From an uncultured Candidatus Saccharibacteria bacterium (GTDB lineage: Bacteria; Patescibacteriota; Saccharimonadia; Saccharimonadales; Saccharimonadaceae), in contig CANBEI010000002.1 in NCBI GenBank assembly GCA_947367565.1, positions 1 through 60,888 of the forward strand: 60,888 nt of DNA, written 5' to 3'. The notes beneath the pieces were generated by a model, which saw only the letters and a list, made by a program, of their open reading frames with translations, ran no database searches and was not told the origin of the DNA. The position numbers were made by a program, and so were the translations under genes. How positions within the stretch are numbered: position 1 is the first letter of the stretch; the number at the start of each line of letters is the position of its first letter. Shown here piece by piece: positions 3,769 through 55,052 of this stretch.

Positions 3769-5512
3769 GAAAGTCCTTACTCCAACCTTTACCAAAAAAA
3801 TTTGATAAACGGTTGGGTATTGAAGATAGGAAGCTCGTGAGCAAATGCTCACGAGCTTCTGCGTTGTTTACAGAGTTATATTGCGCCACCTCGTCTTTCA
3901 TCGGCTCTACCAGCATGGTAAACGGTTCGGCAAATTCCGCCGTTACTTTTCCATCAGAGCCAATTAGCAGACGTTTAAAAATTGCCTGGTTCATCATTTT
4001 CTTCATATTGTCATTAGCCATGCGGTAAGTCCTGCCGCAGTTCTCAATCAGGTCTATCGCATCGCCAAGCCTCTCTATGACTGTAGTAAAGGTATAATCA
4101 TAGGCTTTTATCTGGTGGTCAATCGCAGCAAGCTGTTTCGCAATTTTCTGCTGCTCGCTCTTAAGTAGGTCGAGAGGGATAGCGTCATTATAATGCGCCT
4201 CCAATAACTTTTTACGCTGACGTTCCAGCTTATCTTTTTCCCTGCGCAGTCCATCCAATTCCGTAGCATATTTATCCTGTTCAGCTTCTATATTCTGCCT
4301 TAGCCATTTTTCCAGATAGTCAGCGATTTTGGGTGGAAAAGAATAGCTGTCATAAATCTGCTCCACCTGCCGCTCAACGTCCGCTATTAAGACTGCCCGT
4401 TGCTTACAGTCTGTACGTTTGTTATGCCGTCCGCCGCAAATGAAGTACGGATAGCGAACTCCGGTATGGGATTTTGTGTAGTTGATAAACATCCGTGACC
4501 CGCAGTTTTTGCAGAAAACGCTGCCTTTTAAAAAATGAGGGTGTTCACGAGTGCGTTCGCCATTGATGTGAGACAACAGAATATCCTGTACTTGCTGCCA
4601 GGTATCGGGATTCACAAGAGCCGGGTGTGTTCCATCATACTCTACTCCTTGGTATGACACAATGCCTTTGTAGTAAGGGTTTATCAATACGCTGTTCAGG
4701 GATTTTTTGTTAATAGGCTGTGACGGAATTCTGGGTGTGGCGCGGGTAGTTAAACCGCAGGCTGCCAGATGTTCCGCTAAATCCTGCACCGTCCAATTAC
4801 CAGTGGCATATTCCTCAAACGCCAGCTTAATGAGCGGCGCACGCTCTTCGTCCAGTATTACGGTACGTTCCTCACGCCCCTTCTCGTCCATGCGTCGGAT
4901 ATTGAGATAGCCAAGCGGTGCGCGGCTGGGCGTGCCACCGCTCTTCACTTTCTCATTCAGCCCCTTTTTGACCTCATTTGCCAGGTTCTGTGAGTAAAAT
5001 TCTGCGATGGAACTCATGATGCCGTGGAGCAGCATTCCTGCTGGAGTGTCATCAATGCTTTCCGAGGCGGATACCAGTTGAACTCCGCATTCACGCAAAG
5101 TGCGCATAATATCAACGTCATCACCGCGATTCCGAGCGAGACGGTCAACCTTATGTACAATTACGTAGTCTACCCTGTCAGCATTTTCCTTCACGTATTC
5201 CAGCATTTTCTGGAGTTCCGGGCGGTCAGCGGATTTAGCGGAAGTTCCCCGGTCAACAAACTCCTTACCGACCATTGCGCCCATGGAGAGCGCCTTTTTC
5301 TTGTTGGCTTCCCGCTGGGCTGGAATAGAAAAACCCTCATCAGCACCGCCGCCACGCTCTGCCTGCCCGCGCGTAGAGACACGGAGGTAGGACACGGCGA
5401 ATTTGGGCGTCATAGCGTTTGCCAGTGATTCCATGGGGTTACTAGCTGCATAGTCCATAAAAACCTCTCCTTTCTGGGTATTTGTGCGATTATAGCGCTG
5501 TTTGCGCATCAC
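3704..5512 (-). CDS. large serine recombinase (resolvase + recombinase + zinc ribbon)
   Basis: YLRVSTRGQAERGGGADEGFSIPAQ, DRPELQKMLEY, HKVDRLARNRGDD, zinc ribbon FCKNCGSRM, C-terminal coiled coil. Last ~22 codons are antisense to tRNA-Ala. Confidence 0.95.
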   Translation of the reverse strand: MMRKQRYNRTNTQKGEVFMDYAASNPMESLANAMTPKFAVSYLRVSTRGQAERGGGADEGFSIPAQREANKKKALSMGAMVGKEFVDRGTSAKSADRPELQKMLEYVKENADRVDYVIVHKVDRLARNRGDDVDIMRTLRECGVQLVSASESIDDTPAGMLLHGIMSSIAEFYSQNLANEVKKGLNEKVKSGGTPSRAPLGYLNIRRMDEKGREERTVILDEERAPLIKLAFEEYATGNWTVQDLAEHLAACGLTTRATPRIPSQPINKKSLNSVLINPYYKGIVSYQGVEYDGTHPALVNPDTWQQVQDILLSHINGERTREHPHFLKGSVFCKNCGSRMFINYTKSHTGVRYPYFICGGRHNKRTDCKQRAVLIADVERQVEQIYDSYSFPPKIADYLEKWLRQNIEAEQDKYATELDGLRREKDKLERQRKKLLEAHYNDAIPLDLLKSEQQKIAKQLAAIDHQIKAYDYTFTTVIERLGDAIDLIENCGRTYRMANDNMKKMMNQAIFKRLLIGSDGKVTAEFAEPFTMLVEPMKDEVAQYNSVNNAEAREHLLTSFLSSIPNRLSNFFGKGWSKDFLVETIGLEPTTSAMRMPRSTR

Positions 5513-23976: not shown

Positions 23977-24549
23977 ATGGCAGCAACAGAACCGATTAGA
24001 GACAAGAAACAGTTAAAGGAACTCGCTGATTATTTTTTACGCAAAGGACAGCTTCGTAACTATATACTGGTTGTTATGGGAACATATACCGTGCTTCGTA
24101 TCAGCGACTTACTCCGGCTAAAGTGGTCGGATGTATATGATGAGGAAAGGCAGGAGTTCCGTGACCATATTACTGTAGTAGAAAAGAAAACTAAGAAAGA
24201 GCGCACGATTGCCCTGAATCCGCAACTACTTGGCGCGCTCCGGCAGTATTACGCTCATCGCCGGGGAGAATATGTATTTGCCAATAACCGCAAAGAGCCA
24301 AAAGCTATCAGCCGAGTGCAGGCGTGGCGGATAATCCATGCGGCAGTGGCAGAGCTTGGGATTGCCGGGAAGATTGCCTGCCATTCTTTAAGGAAGACCT
24401 GGGGGTATCATACCGTGAAAGATAATAAAGTGGCATTGGCCGTAGTTGTAGACATTTATAATCACAGTAGTTATGAGATTACGAAGCGTTACCTTGGAAT
24501 TACACAAGATGAACGGGATGAAGCATATCTGGGGATGAAGCTGTTCTGA
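23977..24549 (+). CDS. short tyrosine recombinase (FimB/XerD-like catalytic domain)
   Basis: YTVLRISDLLRLKWSDV, ACHSLRKTWGYHTVK, YNHSSYEITKRYLGI. Confidence 0.88.
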   Translation: MAATEPIRDKKQLKELADYFLRKGQLRNYILVVMGTYTVLRISDLLRLKWSDVYDEERQEFRDHITVVEKKTKKERTIALNPQLLGALRQYYAHRRGEYVFANNRKEPKAISRVQAWRIIHAAVAELGIAGKIACHSLRKTWGYHTVKDNKVALAVVVDIYNHSSYEITKRYLGITQDERDEAYLGMKLF

Positions 24550-24651
24550 GATGTTAATTGAATGAAATTTTTCCAATTAGGAGGGCGTGAAAATAAGTGC
24601 GCTCTGTTTTGTAATGGAAAAATATATCCGGTATCTATCTTCTTTTCTCCA

Positions 24652-24960
24652 TTAGGCACTACCTGGGTAGAGGCAGCGGAGGGAGAAACCACCATAGCGA
24701 ATGTAGTAGTCTGACGGATTAACATACGTAGGATGCATGCCCAAGTAGTAGGCGTGGGTAGACGATTTGGGGGTACGTGACCAAGCACGACCATACTCAC
24801 CAACGTTGCTAACATAACCATAGCTGAGGTAGACATACCCGCTACGGACAAAAGCCAATGGTAATTGTACTATGGTGGTGGCGCCGGAGGTACTGATTAT
24901 ATTGGAGCATTCATCTCCCTTGTCAATTTTCGCCAGACCATGACTGCTATTTTTGGTGAT
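24652..24960 (-). other. DGR-variable-region-like C-terminal cassette (VR2), open frame without ATG
   Basis: Frame after an upstream TGA: ITKNSSHGLAKIDKGDECSNIISTSGATTIVQLPLAFVRSGYVYLSYGYVSNVGEYGRAWSRTPKSSTHAYYLGMHPTYVNPSDYYIRYGGFSLRCLYPGSA*. Confidence 0.6.
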
Positions 24961-26516: not shown

Positions 26517-26591
<75 letters not shown>

Positions 26592-26700: not shown

Positions 26701-27258
26701 TTAAGTGGAGTGATATTTTTTGTATTGCTCCTCTAAATCATTGTCTACCACATAAGCATACATCATAGTCGTATCTAGCGATCTGTGCCCCATCATGGCG
26801 CTTAAATACCTCATATTACCGTTGTTCCGTAAGAAATTCGTGGCATAGCTATGGCGCAGAGTATGCGGCGTTACATGTTTTACGATTCCTGCCCTACGTG
26901 CGGCGTTTTTGACTAATAGCTCTACGTTAGTTCTGGTCATCCGCTCCTGAGATTGGAATGACACGACTAAAGCATTAGAACGGTCTTTCCTTGCTTCAAG
27001 ATATTGCTCCATGAGTTTTTCAGTGCGCGAGTCAATAAAACATAATCTAACCTTCCCTCCTTTGCCAGTAACGGTAAACTTACGCTGATAAATTTGGTCT
27101 CGGTTGAGGCTGGTAAATTCAGCCAATCGGATTCCGAAGCTATATAGCAATGAGATGACGAATTTAGCTCTTAAATTAGGCGCGCTACTAATCATTCTCG
27201 ACACTTCCTCCTCCGTCAAAAATGTGGGGTTGGCATCCGCTCTCTGAGGCACTGGCAC
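26701..27258 (-). CDS. tyrosine integrase, catalytic part (GTG start)
   Basis: FGIRLAEFTSLNRDQI, TPHTLRHSYATNFLRNNGNMRYLSAMMGHRSLDTTMMYAYV. Confidence 0.85.
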   Translation of the reverse strand: MPVPQRADANPTFLTEEEVSRMISSAPNLRAKFVISLLYSFGIRLAEFTSLNRDQIYQRKFTVTGKGGKVRLCFIDSRTEKLMEQYLEARKDRSNALVVSFQSQERMTRTNVELLVKNAARRAGIVKHVTPHTLRHSYATNFLRNNGNMRYLSAMMGHRSLDTTMMYAYVVDNDLEEQYKKYHST

Positions 27259-27500
27259 TAAGCGAGTACCCTACGTAATTTTATGATATATCCGCGCACG
27301 GTGTTCGATGATCTTGTTTTGTTAATACATTCTACCCACCTCCGAATATCCTCTATAGTTAAGCTCTCTATAGTTTTATTCTTGAAGAAAGCTGATAGAT
27401 TTTTGGAAACATAATCGTGTGTTTCCTCTGTTCTGGGAGACTGCCTACGCATCCGCATGTAATCATTCTTATACATATTGAATGCTTCCGAAATTAACAT
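27258..27500 (-). CDS. tyrosine integrase N-terminal SAM-like part
   Basis: DYVSKNLSAFFKNKTIESLTIEDIRRWVECINKTRSSNTVRGYIIKLRRVLA*; stop overlaps the GTG of 26701-27258. Confidence 0.7.
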   Translation of the reverse strand: MLISEAFNMYKNDYMRMRRQSPRTEETHDYVSKNLSAFFKNKTIESLTIEDIRRWVECINKTRSSNTVRGYIIKLRRVLA

Positions 27501-27566: not shown

Positions 27567-27941
27567 TTAGGCTGCCGAGTAGGCGTGGCGATAGTATTGC
27601 CGCTTCGCCTTTTGTTCCTGGTAAAGTCGTGATTTTACCAGTTGTTTGTAGCAGAGCTTATTAAACCGTGCTGCCGGACATCTTATTCCTGGCTGAGTCG
27701 CCATTTTAAGCGCCCAATCAATGTAGTTGCTGCTAATAAATCGTACTACGTCACAAAATAGTGCGCGACCGGCGTCTGAGCCAAGTTGCTTAACGATGTC
27801 GTCTACTCTGGCATCGACTAGTTCTTCCGCTAGCGCCTCTTTCCTAATTGCTCCACTCAATGTCATTGTCATTGGAGATTTCTTTAGAAATCTACCATTG
27901 CCATTGTCAATGAGTTCATTGATTCCCTGTACGCTCCCCAT
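27567..27941 (-). CDS. hypothetical prophage protein
   Basis: 124 aa, between integrase and invertible segment. Confidence 0.5.
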   Translation of the reverse strand: MGSVQGINELIDNGNGRFLKKSPMTMTLSGAIRKEALAEELVDARVDDIVKQLGSDAGRALFCDVVRFISSNYIDWALKMATQPGIRCPAARFNKLCYKQLVKSRLYQEQKAKRQYYRHAYSAA

Positions 27942-28204: not shown

Positions 28205-28908
28205 AATGTCGCACAACGTTGATTGGGAGACGTTTGGAGAGACGATAACGGTTAAGAAATATAGTTTAACCTTACAATCTAATCCCTACGTAGCGCCGTT
28301 CACGGCACAACATTATATTGATTTGGCACCCGATATGAAAACTTATGGCACGCCAATCGCGGTATCAGCGCGTGGCGGAAGTGGTGAAGGTATACCAGCC
28401 TATATAGATTACAGCAGTAAAAGAGTTAATGTAACAGGTATGGCCGAGCGGTCCAAGGCAACGGCCTGCGTTACATTTGCCAAGAGCGATATTGTGCAGC
28501 TCCTTACTGCTCAATAGTTGTTCGCGTTAGATAAATACGGTCTATGAAAACTCGAATTTCTAAACCCATTTTCCCGGGATGAAATAGCCTCGCCTAAAGT
28601 TCCAGTTCGGATTATTACCACTAATCTCAATTACATCACCTTTTGCAACCGGTATTATGCCGTAGACGGCATTTGGCGTAGCTCCGTTGCTACCTTTAAT
28701 TTCCGTGATATAATCAACGATTTGCTTACCGTTAACTTTTACAATCACCTCGGTCTGATTAAAGGTATAAGCATTGAGATTGAGAGACACCCACCCGTTG
28801 CCAGGAACAGTGAGGATACCTCCACCGGTGATAAGGTTGTCTGTACTCATATTCGCATAGTCAGGAACAAAAGCTTTCATTGTCTCCCAATCAACGTTGT
28901 GCGACATT
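28205..28908. other. putative invertible tail-fibre segment bounded by 27-bp perfect inverted repeats
   Basis: aatgtcgcacaacgttgattgggagac at 28205-28231 (+) and 28882-28908 (-), in-frame in both ORFs (MSHNVDWET). Confidence 0.85.
28206..28517 (+). CDS. silent alternative tail-fibre C-terminal cassette (103 aa)
   Basis: Begins MSHNVDWET, identical to codons 188-196 of the convergent gene; no upstream fibre domain in this orientation. Confidence 0.75.
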   Translation: MSHNVDWETFGETITVKKYSLTLQSNPYVAPFTAQHYIDLAPDMKTYGTPIAVSARGGSGEGIPAYIDYSSKRVNVTGMAERSKATACVTFAKSDIVQLLTAQ

Positions 28909-29468
28909 ATTTTACCTGCCAAAGTCGCTCTTTGGATACCGATATTGGTGTTCGTAATTGTCGTTGCGTTTGACGCAACCGTTACATTCGCAATGACGCC
29001 GTAGCAGGCCTGTGAGCCGGTAGCGCCATCCGCAGTAATCGCTGTCCGGATTTCCGTTTCGGTAGGGGGTATAGGGTTGGCCGACGCTGCGCCATTGACG
29101 ATGATGAGGCCGCAAGACGCTGGACTACCCGTTACGTTACTTTGGTTGGTTGCGAGCGACAAGTCGTCCGTATACGCAACAATACTGGAAATACGCGAAT
29201 TGGATGCAGGTGTCGTGAGCGTAATCGCTTGCTGGCCGACGAGGTCGAGTGCAATGCGATACCCGGCCGGATTCTTCGCCAAGACGACGTCCGGGCAGCT
29301 TGGCGTGCCGCCGATCAAGACGTTCAGGTCAGCCACCGTATTTGGGATTACGCCGTTACCGTCCAGCAAACCATCAGTAAACCCTTGACACCAACCGTTT
29401 GCTTCATAGATACTTGCGCGACCGCCGCGCCGCGCTCGTACTCGTACAATATCACCAGGATTCGTCAT
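28560..29468 (-). CDS. tail-fibre / receptor-binding-like protein with switchable C-terminus
   Basis: 302 aa; internal GKIMSHNVDWETMKAF at codon ~188; followed by cell-lysis gene; Thr/Asn/Gly-rich. Confidence 0.65.
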   Translation of the reverse strand: MTNPGDIVRVRARRGGRASIYEANGWCQGFTDGLLDGNGVIPNTVADLNVLIGGTPSCPDVVLAKNPAGYRIALDLVGQQAITLTTPASNSRISSIVAYTDDLSLATNQSNVTGSPASCGLIIVNGAASANPIPPTETEIRTAITADGATGSQACYGVIANVTVASNATTITNTNIGIQRATLAGKIMSHNVDWETMKAFVPDYANMSTDNLITGGGILTVPGNGWVSLNLNAYTFNQTEVIVKVNGKQIVDYITEIKGSNGATPNAVYGIIPVAKGDVIEISGNNPNWNFRRGYFIPGKWV

Positions 29469-29470
29469 GC

Positions 29471-30469
29471 CTACTCCTCCACCCGATGTTCAATATCATC
29501 GTTATAGTACAATCCATAGCCCGTACCACTCGTCCAGCCATCGTAGACGCTCTGGCCGGGCTTGATGACGAGGCTATACCAAGTTTTCGCATAGGCATCC
29601 ATGGCTTCGCCATATTGAACGGTGTTTTCGCATTCGAGCATGATTTTGCTCATAGTGTCGCCCTGCTCGACATGCCACTGGACGCAGCCGCTGACGGGGA
29701 TTTCTGGCTGCGGTTCGGGTTCTGGAGCCGGATCAGGTTTGACGTAAGTCTTTGGTCGGAAAGCGCCACGGAAAGTCTTGAGAGACATATTAATGATGTT
29801 GGCTGACGAGCCGCCACCAATACAGCTTGAGCCGCCTTGATTCTCTCCAAGTAGAGCAACGTAGCCATTGTTGTAGTAGCCAAGGCTCATCCCAACGTGA
29901 CCGTATTGGCCACCAGAGAAAATCACCCAGTCGCCCGGTTGGAGCTGAGTAGCATCAGTAATAAGTACATAATCATCGCCCGCATTATAATCGCGCGCAT
30001 CCCAGAGACCATACGCTGCGCCCGTGCCATTTGTCGAGAGCCAACGCCCAGTGTAGTTATAGTGAAAGTCGGCGAAGAGGTCGACGCACTGTGCGCCATA
30101 GAGACCGTCTAAGTCGATACATTTACCGAGGACGGCGTTCTTATAGGCGTCTGGGCTCGAGATGTCGTGATACTCTCCGCGTCCGAAATCCAGCTTCTCT
30201 TCGTCAATCGCCTGCTTCCCGTCGATGCTCTCAACGGTCGGTGCGGCTAGTTCTTCAATCTCGCCCTCGGCATTCTCGACAAGCGTTGGCACTTGCTCGT
30301 CGGACAGCTCGATAGCGTAGTCGGTCTCTATCGTGATATCGCCGTCTGGTGCGATGTTAAGACCGATGCCGGAGCCAGCGAGTAAGCCGAGCAATAGAAT
30401 GGCTACAGCGCTAATAATCGATTTTAGGTTGATATTGTAGAGATTAAGTTTTGACACCAACTTTCCCAT
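29471..30469 (-). CDS. endolysin-like protein: N-terminal TM, CHAP amidase domain, C-terminal LysM-like region
   Basis: TM SIISAVAILLLGLLAGSGIGL; CHAP GAQCVDLFADFHYNYTG and QLQPGDWVIFSGGQYGHVGMSLGY; VEQGDTMSKIMLE. Confidence 0.8.
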   Translation of the reverse strand: MGKLVSKLNLYNINLKSIISAVAILLLGLLAGSGIGLNIAPDGDITIETDYAIELSDEQVPTLVENAEGEIEELAAPTVESIDGKQAIDEEKLDFGRGEYHDISSPDAYKNAVLGKCIDLDGLYGAQCVDLFADFHYNYTGRWLSTNGTGAAYGLWDARDYNAGDDYVLITDATQLQPGDWVIFSGGQYGHVGMSLGYYNNGYVALLGENQGGSSCIGGGSSANIINMSLKTFRGAFRPKTYVKPDPAPEPEPQPEIPVSGCVQWHVEQGDTMSKIMLECENTVQYGEAMDAYAKTWYSLVIKPGQSVYDGWTSGTGYGLYYNDDIEHRVEE

Positions 30470-33898: not shown

Positions 33899-36376
33899 TT
33901 AATATACTCCCTGCGTCTTTAAGGCAATTTTTCGACTAATGATATTGGCGAGCTCTTCTGGATCTTTGTTGTAACCATCGATAGAAATTGACACGTTATA
34001 AGTATTGCCGCTGTTCATACTGCCGGTCTCATTAAGCTGGTCGAGATTATCATATCCAGCCCGACGCGCCGCAGCCGCACGGATAACGTATTCGCCCTTC
34101 GAGAGCGCATAAAGATTTGAATCGCTGGTATCAGTGCCGATGCCCTCGACGCAGCCACCCATCGCCGCCTTGCTGATATGGGCGAACCCAGTGCCATAAT
34201 CAATACTCTGGCCGGTTGCGAGTGCGACCACGGCGACGATAGCGTCAGCAATACTCATAATCATATCACGGAAGGTGCTGAGGATGCCGTTTACGCCGTT
34301 GAGAGCATTTCTGATTGCCTCACCCATTTTCGTGAAGCCGTCGCTGACTTTTTCGATGATGTTTGCAATACCGCCTAACGCTGCGTTAAGAGTTCCAGTA
34401 ATAAGACCCGAGACCGAGTTCAAGACGTTAGTAAATGTTCCGCTGAGAGTCTCGAGCAATGGAATGACTGCGCCTTGAGTTAGATTAACGATTGAGGCAG
34501 TTACAGCGTCAATAATCGCAATGAATGAGCCAGTCATGAATTCGCCAAGCGGGATGAGCGCCGAATTAGTCAAGTTAATCATGAGGTCGGTTAGCGTCGT
34601 AATGGTAAGTAGCACAGTCTCTGCGATAAAGGTCGCAAGAGGCATTAGCACCTCATTGAACAATGTCGTAATGGTTGGCATAACGACGCCAATCGCCGCG
34701 CCGATGAGTAGAACAGCGGCTGCAATAGCCGCAGCTGCAACTGTAAACATGGCTGCGCCAACTGCAATCATCGGGTCGGCGAAAGCCTTGAAGAATCCGG
34801 CAACCGCTTCACCAATACCCTTGAAGGCAACTTTGATCGGCTCTAGGACGGTGCCTACGACAGAGCCTAAGATATCCCCCAGCGCCTTGAACGCCGAACT
34901 AATTGTATTGCCGAGATTGGTGATTTTTGAGGCAAGCGAGCTACCAACTTTAGAAACCGATGAGCTGGCTTCGTTCGCAACGTCGGTTCCAATGTTCTTT
35001 TTGAAAAACTTTGAGAATGGATTGCCGATATGCTCCTTGAGACCGGAGAGCAAGTTCGTGCCAACGGTTTTGAGCACGGTGCTACCAACTAGAAGTCCGA
35101 AGCCAGCTAGGATCGGTTCGGTATTTTCCGGTTTCGCAAATTCCTCGCCGAGACTATTAACAATTTGACCAACGATTTCTGGCAGTAATGGAATAATGGC
35201 AGTAACGATACGACCCGCCCCAGCCGCTACCGCAACAAATAATTTTACGAACCCATCAATGATAGTTGTTACATTATCGGCATTAGAAATGAAGTCTACA
35301 ATTCCGTCGACGAGAGCTCCGATGATATCGGGCAAAACCTCAAGCACTGGAGGAATAATGCTAGTTAGCATAGATATAATACTGCTGACTAAATCCGGTA
35401 ACACACCAACTAGGATTGGCGCAAGTTCGCCGAACAGGTTTCCAATATTAGATACGATGTCATGAATGGCTGGCTCGAGGTTTGTGGCTGCGGTTTTAAT
35501 ACTGCTTACAAAGGCTGGGAAAATATCATTCCATGCCATTGTAGTCCCGCCACCCATAAAGGCTAGTAAATTCTTCCAAGAGGCTTTGACCATATTGAGG
35601 CTACCAGAGATAGTACCCTCAGCCTCTTCCGCTGTTGTATTCGTGATTTTTCGAAAATCCTGAATGACGTGAATGGCTTTCGTGATATCGGCAAAGCTGT
35701 CAATACTAAACTTTGTACCAGACAATTTCTCTGCGTCAGCCAGCAATCGCTCCATCTCCGTCTTTGTGCCACCATAGCCGAGTTTAAGGTTATCAAGCAT
35801 AGTGTAATTCTGCTTGGAGAAACCTCTGTACGCATCTTGTATGCTCTCTATACTAGTTCCCATTTTATTAGCATTGTCTGACATATCGATAATCGCATCG
35901 TTAGCGTATTCAGCCGCCTTAGCCGTATCATTGCCTAAACTTTGAAGGAGGCTGGCGGAGAAGTCGGTTGCCATTTCCATATACTCATTCGCAGAGAGCC
36001 CAGCCGTTCTATATGCCTTTTGTGCATAATTATCGACCGTGTCTAGCGCATCGCCAAATAGCGTTTCGATACCACCGTATAGTTGTTCCCAATCGGCGTA
36101 AGCCGTGAGTGCGCTCTTGCCAATCCCAGCGAAGGCTGCGGTTGCGGCCGTGCCTGCGGCGGCGAAAGTTCCCATAGCAACCTTGCCAACACCCGAAAAC
36201 ACAGTTTTTAGGTTACTGCCAAGCCCACTAAAAATCCCAGTAATTTTGTTACTGCTACTCGTAGCCGCTGTTTCTGCGCCAGCTAGTTCTTGTTTGAGGT
36301 CATTCGTTATACCTTTAAGCGACGGCTTGATTTGAATCCATGCCGTGCCGATAGAAGTTCCTGCCACGGTTCCCAC
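33899..36376 (-). CDS. tape measure protein
   Basis: 825 aa, GGIETLFGDALDTVDNYAQKAYRTAGLSANEYMEMATDFSASLLQSLG, long hydrophobic stretches. Confidence 0.93.
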   Translation of the reverse strand: MGTVAGTSIGTAWIQIKPSLKGITNDLKQELAGAETAATSSSNKITGIFSGLGSNLKTVFSGVGKVAMGTFAAAGTAATAAFAGIGKSALTAYADWEQLYGGIETLFGDALDTVDNYAQKAYRTAGLSANEYMEMATDFSASLLQSLGNDTAKAAEYANDAIIDMSDNANKMGTSIESIQDAYRGFSKQNYTMLDNLKLGYGGTKTEMERLLADAEKLSGTKFSIDSFADITKAIHVIQDFRKITNTTAEEAEGTISGSLNMVKASWKNLLAFMGGGTTMAWNDIFPAFVSSIKTAATNLEPAIHDIVSNIGNLFGELAPILVGVLPDLVSSIISMLTSIIPPVLEVLPDIIGALVDGIVDFISNADNVTTIIDGFVKLFVAVAAGAGRIVTAIIPLLPEIVGQIVNSLGEEFAKPENTEPILAGFGLLVGSTVLKTVGTNLLSGLKEHIGNPFSKFFKKNIGTDVANEASSSVSKVGSSLASKITNLGNTISSAFKALGDILGSVVGTVLEPIKVAFKGIGEAVAGFFKAFADPMIAVGAAMFTVAAAAIAAAVLLIGAAIGVVMPTITTLFNEVLMPLATFIAETVLLTITTLTDLMINLTNSALIPLGEFMTGSFIAIIDAVTASIVNLTQGAVIPLLETLSGTFTNVLNSVSGLITGTLNAALGGIANIIEKVSDGFTKMGEAIRNALNGVNGILSTFRDMIMSIADAIVAVVALATGQSIDYGTGFAHISKAAMGGCVEGIGTDTSDSNLYALSKGEYVIRAAAARRAGYDNLDQLNETGSMNSGNTYNVSISIDGYNKDPEELANIISRKIALKTQGVY

Positions 36377-54694: not shown

Positions 54695-54752
54695 GTAGAG
54701 CACTTCCATGGTAAGGAAGGGGTCTCGGGTTCAAATCCCGATCGCGGCTCCA
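54695..54752 (+). repeat. attR core (58 bp; 3' part of tRNA-Thr)
   Basis: Identical to 26534-26591. Confidence 0.93.
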
Positions 54753-54788: not shown

Positions 54789-55052
54789 TTTATGAGACGT
54801 GTCGGGAATGCACTCGAGACCGTAGGTCGAGGGTGCATAGCGAGGAGGAGCGTGAGGAAAATCCAGAGTCTACTCTGGATTTTTTGAATCGACGACGAGC
54901 GCTGAGCAAAGCGAAGTTTCCCGATCGCGGCTCCATAGAAAGGTGCTGACTTAGCCGGCGCTTTTCTATGCCTACAGAAGCATAAAATAAACCCCGCAGC
55001 CTAGGCCCGGGGTTTAAGTTTAAAACATTTTGTTGCGATTAGATTTTTCTGC

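Follow-up and report, generated by a model that had tools for sequence, protein, structure and literature searches.

The window analysed here, the whole 60,888-nt stretch of a Saccharibacteria contig, carries a 28.16-kb prophage within a tRNA-Thr, 58 nt of which are repeated perfectly and in direct orientation at the two prophage ends: attL (26534..26591, plus strand), which according to the tRNA call is the tRNA-Thr 3' part, and attR (54695..54752, plus strand). At the left end of the prophage lies a 704-bp segment organized as an inversion cassette. On one side its tail gene is adjoined by a CHAP-domain endolysin gene (29471..30469, minus strand; PF05257, E 5.5e-07; phrog_7887 endolysin, E 4.4e-16), followed by the gene of the tail tape measure protein (33899..36376, minus strand), whose match to phrog_6900 (E 2.9e-74) assigns the cassette to the tail module, and so the endolysin and tail genes that an earlier sequence-only reading had placed beside the cassette are both matched. 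On the other side lies a phage tyrosine integrase split between two frames into an N-terminal part (27258..27500, minus strand; PF13495, E 2.4e-06) and a catalytic part (26701..27258, minus strand; PF00589, E 1.3e-28); an intact 278-aa homologue occupies the same place in the related phage L084. Between the integrase and the cassette there is a 124-aa open reading frame (ORF; 27567-27941), and small ORFs are likewise placed in L084 and L005. Just right of attR the tRNA-Thr 3' end occurs a third time as a partial copy (54919-54941; TCCCGATCGCGGCTCCA), which is perhaps an older integration scar.

The cassette is delimited by two inverted arms, 28205-28231 and 28882-28908, which are complementary at 27/27 positions and separated by 650 nt. 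They form the longest inverted repeat within 24-34 kb of the window, where the runner-up has 22 nt at 73%, and the 27-mer has exactly two copies in the 914-kb genome even with up to three mismatches allowed; the chance of a 27-bp perfect repeat within 10 kb is, by our own estimate, of the order of 1e-9. The tail gene 28560-29468 (minus strand) encodes 302 aa and consists of a constant N-terminal domain (28908..29468, codons 1-187), which is kept in viral contigs and related genomes, and an expressed variable C-terminal tip (28560..28907, codons 188-302 and stop). The expressed recombination site lies within this gene (28882..28908, minus strand; dif-like core 28882-28905) and encodes codons 187-196, of which codons 188-196 read MSHNVDWET. 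The silent site (28205..28231, plus strand) has the dif-like core GTCGCACAA-CGTTGA-TTGGGAGAC at 28208-28231 and opens the convergent ORF 28206-28517 (plus strand), a silent alternative tip of 103 aa, which begins with the same MSHNVDWET and shares its reading frame through the repeat with the tail gene, so that inversion would swap the tips. All coordinates of the sequence-only reading proved to be correct, translation confirmed the nonapeptide at both places, and the predicted change from 302 to 290 aa after inversion holds arithmetically (187 + 103). The complete segment, 28205..28908, is delimited as putatively invertible by this anatomy and by the spacing in relatives. A tRNA-like stretch was also observed within the silent ORF (VTGMAERSKAT).

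The product of 28560-29468 looks like a receptor-binding tail protein. Its AlphaFold model has a pLDDT of 79.8, with blocks of residues 31-180 mostly at 90-98, and Foldseek comparison with BFVD gave viral matches, many of them named receptor binding protein or minor tail protein (best match E 8e-12, with modest TM-scores). The expressed tip weakly resembles C1q/TNF-like jelly-roll trimers in the structure search, and family members and relatives match PHROG tail fibre and receptor-binding families; from the fold and these matches the tip may be assigned a role in receptor binding. The search of PDB sequences with the tail protein family found no match, and the single-sequence model of the silent tail was unusable (pLDDT 45.5).

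The same anatomy recurs in other phages. With a profile of the N-terminal domain 59 viral contigs were retrieved, to which a second profile added eight, and the constant domain of about 187 aa is also conserved in related genomes; no match was obtained with this domain among INPHARED phages. Homologues of the 302-aa protein cover only residues 1-183 to 1-198, which indicates that homology ends at the repeat. The search of viral contigs with the 302-aa and 103-aa proteins gave no close relative, and the exact 24-bp core was absent from these contigs. Junction scanning revealed a second, inverted site followed by an alternative tail, open over 97-131 aa, in 10 independent relatives, which makes 11 phages including the window. 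The layout is downstream and convergent, as in the window, in L005, L034, L068/69, L070, L073/75, L080/81, L084, and L141, and upstream and divergent in L009 and L033; the latter is shufflon-like, since it possesses a third site and a third tail. In L053 the inverted pair is retained with a silent tail decayed to 29 aa. The site-to-site spacing in convergent phages is mostly about 675-780 bp (about 870 in L141 and about 450 in the decayed L053), and L080/L081 carry, like the window, a 27-bp perfect repeat, which differs in sequence (GTCGCAAAATATAGATTTTACGACATT). A stop codon abuts the silent site directly upstream in L084 and L068, and the silent frame has no start codon in L070 and L033, so these frames are meaningful only once fused to the N-terminal domain.

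The silent tails are related to tails that other phages express. The L034 silent tail has homologues among expressed tails in at least 12 phages (E down to 1e-30), the L009 silent tail resembles the L141 expressed tail (1e-35), and the silent tail of L141 has expressed counterparts in L049 (5e-42) and the window (2e-11). The window's expressed tip has homologues in the expressed tips of L049 and L054 and in the silent tips of L141 and L033. Thus, the expectation that silent tails would have homologues joined to fibre N-termini stands for several relatives, but not for the window's own 103-aa silent tail, for which no homologue was detected. Together with the recurrence in 10 other phages, the homology of silent and expressed tails supports well the C-terminal switching cassette that had been predicted from the window alone. 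One further candidate, L076:6574-7162, was rejected as a cassette: its tail tip duplication is direct (101/107 nt) and lies downstream of the gene, and its centres differ.

In each recombination site a 6-bp centre is flanked by inverted arms of 11 bp. Tyrosine recombinases require identical centres in partner sites, and in the set of cassettes the centre varies among phages and is identical within each pair (CGTTGA in the window). In 11 independent pairs the variable centre positions agree in 33/33 cells, compared with a mean of 13.7 and a maximum of 29 in 20,000 shuffles, where it should be taken into account that most pairs were detected through pairwise similarity, a bias toward agreement. 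The exceptions are L068, L073, and L141, which were found without pairwise comparison and show agreement at all nine variable positions; L141 was added after the 11-pair test, and its centres also agree. The left and right arms within pairs agree no better than in random pairing (p 0.33 and 0.09, respectively), and the matched core is about 10 bp. In the right arm, at motif position +4, the Thr/Ala codon is xCG in 15 of 18 genes, where 3.4 would be expected, and this codon bias is a constraint at the DNA level that the protein does not explain.

The described geometry is that of dif, in which half-sites of 11 bp lie on both sides of a 6-bp central region (PMC5357621). A pattern derived from the cassette arms matches 37 of 61 genomes of the order, compared with 9 for the reversed control, and the sequence GTCGYACAA-N6-TTTTRCGAC is present in 35 of the 61, nearly always as one copy. 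This chromosomal site is intergenic and flanked by convergent genes; its downstream neighbour is orthologous at 27 of 31 loci, and it is read as the dif site. In two contigs the GC-skew maximum lies 80 kb (G402) and 157 kb (G401) from it, and the identification as dif therefore depends on conservation, genomic context, and an integrated element. This element, L233:4883-9253 (G000:C14:5883-10253), is inserted into the window's own genome at its dif-like site and encodes a Zot-domain protein (PF05707, E 1.1e-11), filamentous-phage-like small ORFs including a coat-like one, and a 414-aa ORF. At its far end the centre and right arm are repeated (TACAGATTTTGCGACACTA), and the left arm is different; by analogy with IMEX phages, this duplication would be what Xer integration at dif leaves.

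With a matrix of the chromosomal arms both cassette sites score 17.2 and the next place in the window 11.3, although the matrix is partly dependent on the cassettes, since 12 fixed positions of the chromosomal search pattern were taken from their arms; copy number, location, and flanking genes of the chromosomal site are independent of this choice. In the shuffled control one position among 4.87 million reaches 17. The left arm of the window agrees with dif at 9/9 positions and the right arm at 6/9, the latter being 9/9 in most relatives. Among the relatives the cassette sites nearly always lead the dif matches, with the exception of the L009 silent site (rank 12), and in nine control phages a score above 14 is reached only by one site each in L040 and L045, two phages whose own tail junctions contain the motif.

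It is likely that the host Xer recombinase, acting at these dif-mimic sites, inverts the 704-bp cassette and switches the receptor-binding tip on the constant 187-aa N-terminal domain. By this mechanism the 704-bp segment would swap two alternative C-termini on one N-terminal domain. Each boundary would imitate the chromosomal dif of the host with its 11-bp inverted arms and 6-bp centre, the housekeeping tyrosine recombinase Xer would occupy the arms at both site copies, and strand exchange inside the identical centre would invert the intervening DNA. Inversion of this kind would be expected to operate in present-day phages and to change their host range. As to the enzyme, neither a tyrosine (PF00589) nor a serine (PF00239) recombinase was found in the virus records of L033, L034, L068, L070, and L073, which are possibly fragments; no tyrosine invertase was found near the cassette in L009, L033, L034, and L070; and no phage gene was found that all cassette phages share and the controls lack. 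The genome of L009 contains a single tyrosine recombinase, which is nearest to XerC/XerD (E 5e-74, under the equivalog cut-off), and the window's genome has a syntenic Xer gene at L236:4132-5091. The records without a recombinase, the lack of a cassette-specific gene in this comparison, and the lone Xer-like enzyme of L009 make the host Xer recombinase the most likely invertase, and the enzyme is probably neither of the Gin/Cin type nor the adjacent frame-split integrase.

Inversion by the phage's own adjacent tyrosine integrase is the alternative that retains most, though it is unlikely. This integrase is itself Xer-like, and its distance from the cassette is 0.7-1.5 kb in the window and likewise short in L005 and L084. 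Against it, the window's integrase is split across two frames, the tRNA-Thr att core that it uses is unlike dif and is absent from the dif-like matches, and the distribution of the two elements is discordant: the cassette is present with no integrase detected in L033, L034, L068, L070, and L073, and an adjacent integrase is present with no second site in L032, L047, L065, and L079. On these grounds (frame split, unrelated att core, absence from other cassette phages) it was rejected as the invertase.

Slightly less probable again is the absence of any active switch, where the silent tail would be left by modular tail exchange through homologous recombination at a conserved linker (NIDFTT). Exchange of tail modules does take place: L059/L064 and L063 are 95-98% identical over about 7.6 kb and have wholly different tail tips from about codon 177, and this difference is tip exchange among strains, entire tail modules having been swapped without inversion. 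The decayed silent tail of L053 also fits this explanation, as does the orientation of the cassettes, since no opposite-orientation version of the same cassette was present in any contig or genome examined; the comparison of related genomes for both orientations, which the sequence-only reading had offered as a check, gave a single one, including the near-identical pairs L080/81, L068/69, and L073/75, in each of which the orientation agrees. But mere exchange does not account for the recurring inverted orientation and spacing, for silent frames that are open yet headless, or for centre identity within pairs and a codon choice that the protein cannot explain.

A dedicated invertase of another kind acting in trans, either a serine enzyme of the Gin/Hin group, a DEDD/Piv enzyme, or an undetected recombinase, is a still more doubtful explanation than modular exchange. 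The window's genome has serine recombinases, with three PF00239 matches, all outside the prophage; they include a large one (609-aa open frame) at 4934-5398, about 23 kb left of the cassette, where it is probably part of another mobile element. Serine invertases need an identical central dinucleotide, whereas the cassette pairs share a matched block of 6-10 bp; moreover, a PF00239 match is absent from the genome of L009, and the cassette arms match the chromosomal site. Finally, it is scarcely credible that a small independent gene or a chance frame accounts for the silent ORF and a regulatory palindrome for the repeat, as the ATG at the window's silent site and the lack of a detected homologue might suggest, because this ATG is the sole start of an ORF with only a short open stretch upstream and no ribosome-binding site seen there, and relatives have silent frames without a start or with a stop abutting the site.

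Similar structures were observed in host genes. In two related host genomes, G126 and G293, dif-like inverted pairs about 1.2-1.4 kb apart lie within FISUMP (PF09603) surface-protein genes (L226:4860-6755, L227:4171-5683, L230:3005-5548, and L231:4335-6787), with a full-length gene on one side and a headless convergent C-terminus on the other, and the site reads VAQxTL[YR]D in both. The centres differ by cassette (GCTACA, CGCACA, CATACA, and TCTACA) and match within each pair, and several G126/G293 contigs break beside these sites. Xer-driven phase variation of host surface proteins is a probable interpretation of these pairs. Separately, a short tyrosine recombinase (190 aa, start inside the catalytic domain) was noticed at 23977-24858 of the window beside small ORFs that have a FISUMP-like motif (SLRCLYPGSA) at their end, where the Pfam search of 24655-24858 found no match, and a similar small ORF lies at L236:6004-6210 near the host Xer gene.

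It is somewhat likely that one genome-wide inversion code, run by housekeeping Xer on many dif-like cassettes whose private 6-bp centres permit recombination with their own partner only, switches both the host FISUMP proteins and the phage tips and so diversifies attacker and target. If host Xer does invert the tail cassette, the phage outsources its host-range switch to the chromosome-dimer recombinase of the host, which the host could hardly discard. A candidate dif site is also obtained for Saccharibacteria. The proposal singles out one enzyme that can be tested, and which cassettes can recombine together is predictable from their 6-bp centres alone. Phage-host specificity in the mostly uncultured Saccharibacteria parasites thereby becomes partly testable with existing metagenome reads.

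Among known systems, the G segment of Mu, the C segment of P1, and Min of p15B (with Gin, Cin, and Min, respectively) are alike in that inversion switches the C-termini of tail proteins. Gin, Cin, and Hin sites are 26-bp sequences with a central dinucleotide, assisted by a Fis enhancer. The Mu, P1, and p15B systems use a serine recombinase, whereas none was found with the Saccharibacteria cassette, no PF00239 match above cut-off being present in the virus records of the cassette phages, so the cassette is not of the Gin/Cin type. The analogy with Mu G and P1 C drawn in the sequence-only reading therefore holds for the switching logic and fails for the enzyme, since a serine invertase is lacking and the sites indicate host Xer.

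The Rin shufflon of bifidophages is prophage-borne and joins a constant 168-aa N-terminus of the receptor-binding protein to alternative C-termini of 95-100 aa; it has several tails, rix sites of 11 bp, and a dedicated rin gene next to the array (PMC6109161). The tyrosine-family logic, the constant N-terminus with alternative tips, and the prophage location are shared, while the Saccharibacteria cassette differs in its dif-like 11-6-11 site and in the absence of a dedicated invertase gene, by which it is not of the Rin type; the window's genome has just two sites and hence two tails. The same account describes a second locus in the tRNA-Met-integrated bifidophages 689b-1 and Bb423phi2, where a segment of about 500 bp, which comprises a small gene and the 3' end of another, is inverted between the two phages with no adjacent recombinase, and where its authors propose an invertase in trans (PMC6109161). 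This locus differs in its 8-bp site (CAGGGTTA), in genes of unidentified function, and in its actinobacterial host, and no dif link is proposed for it in the available part of that source (PMC6109161).

In the literature searched, neither Xer-driven tail-protein switching, nor a phage tail switch at dif mimics, nor tail inversion in phages of CPR bacteria was reported. Inversion of a surface-antigen locus by an Xer-family recombinase is known from mba of Ureaplasma parvum, where XerC mediates inversion at short inverted repeats, and this was reproduced with xerC in Mycoplasma pneumoniae; it differs in that the antigen belongs to the host and that binding is divided between CodV, at the putative dif, and XerC, at the inversion repeats (PMC3599477). 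The IMEX phages CTXphi, VGJphi, and TLCphi and the pdif modules of Acinetobacter likewise use dif-like sites and host Xer, but these serve integration or module mobility and not tail-protein switching (PMC5357621, PMC12907356). Judged by its sites, the Saccharibacteria cassette appears to belong with these elements that exploit the Xer/dif system.
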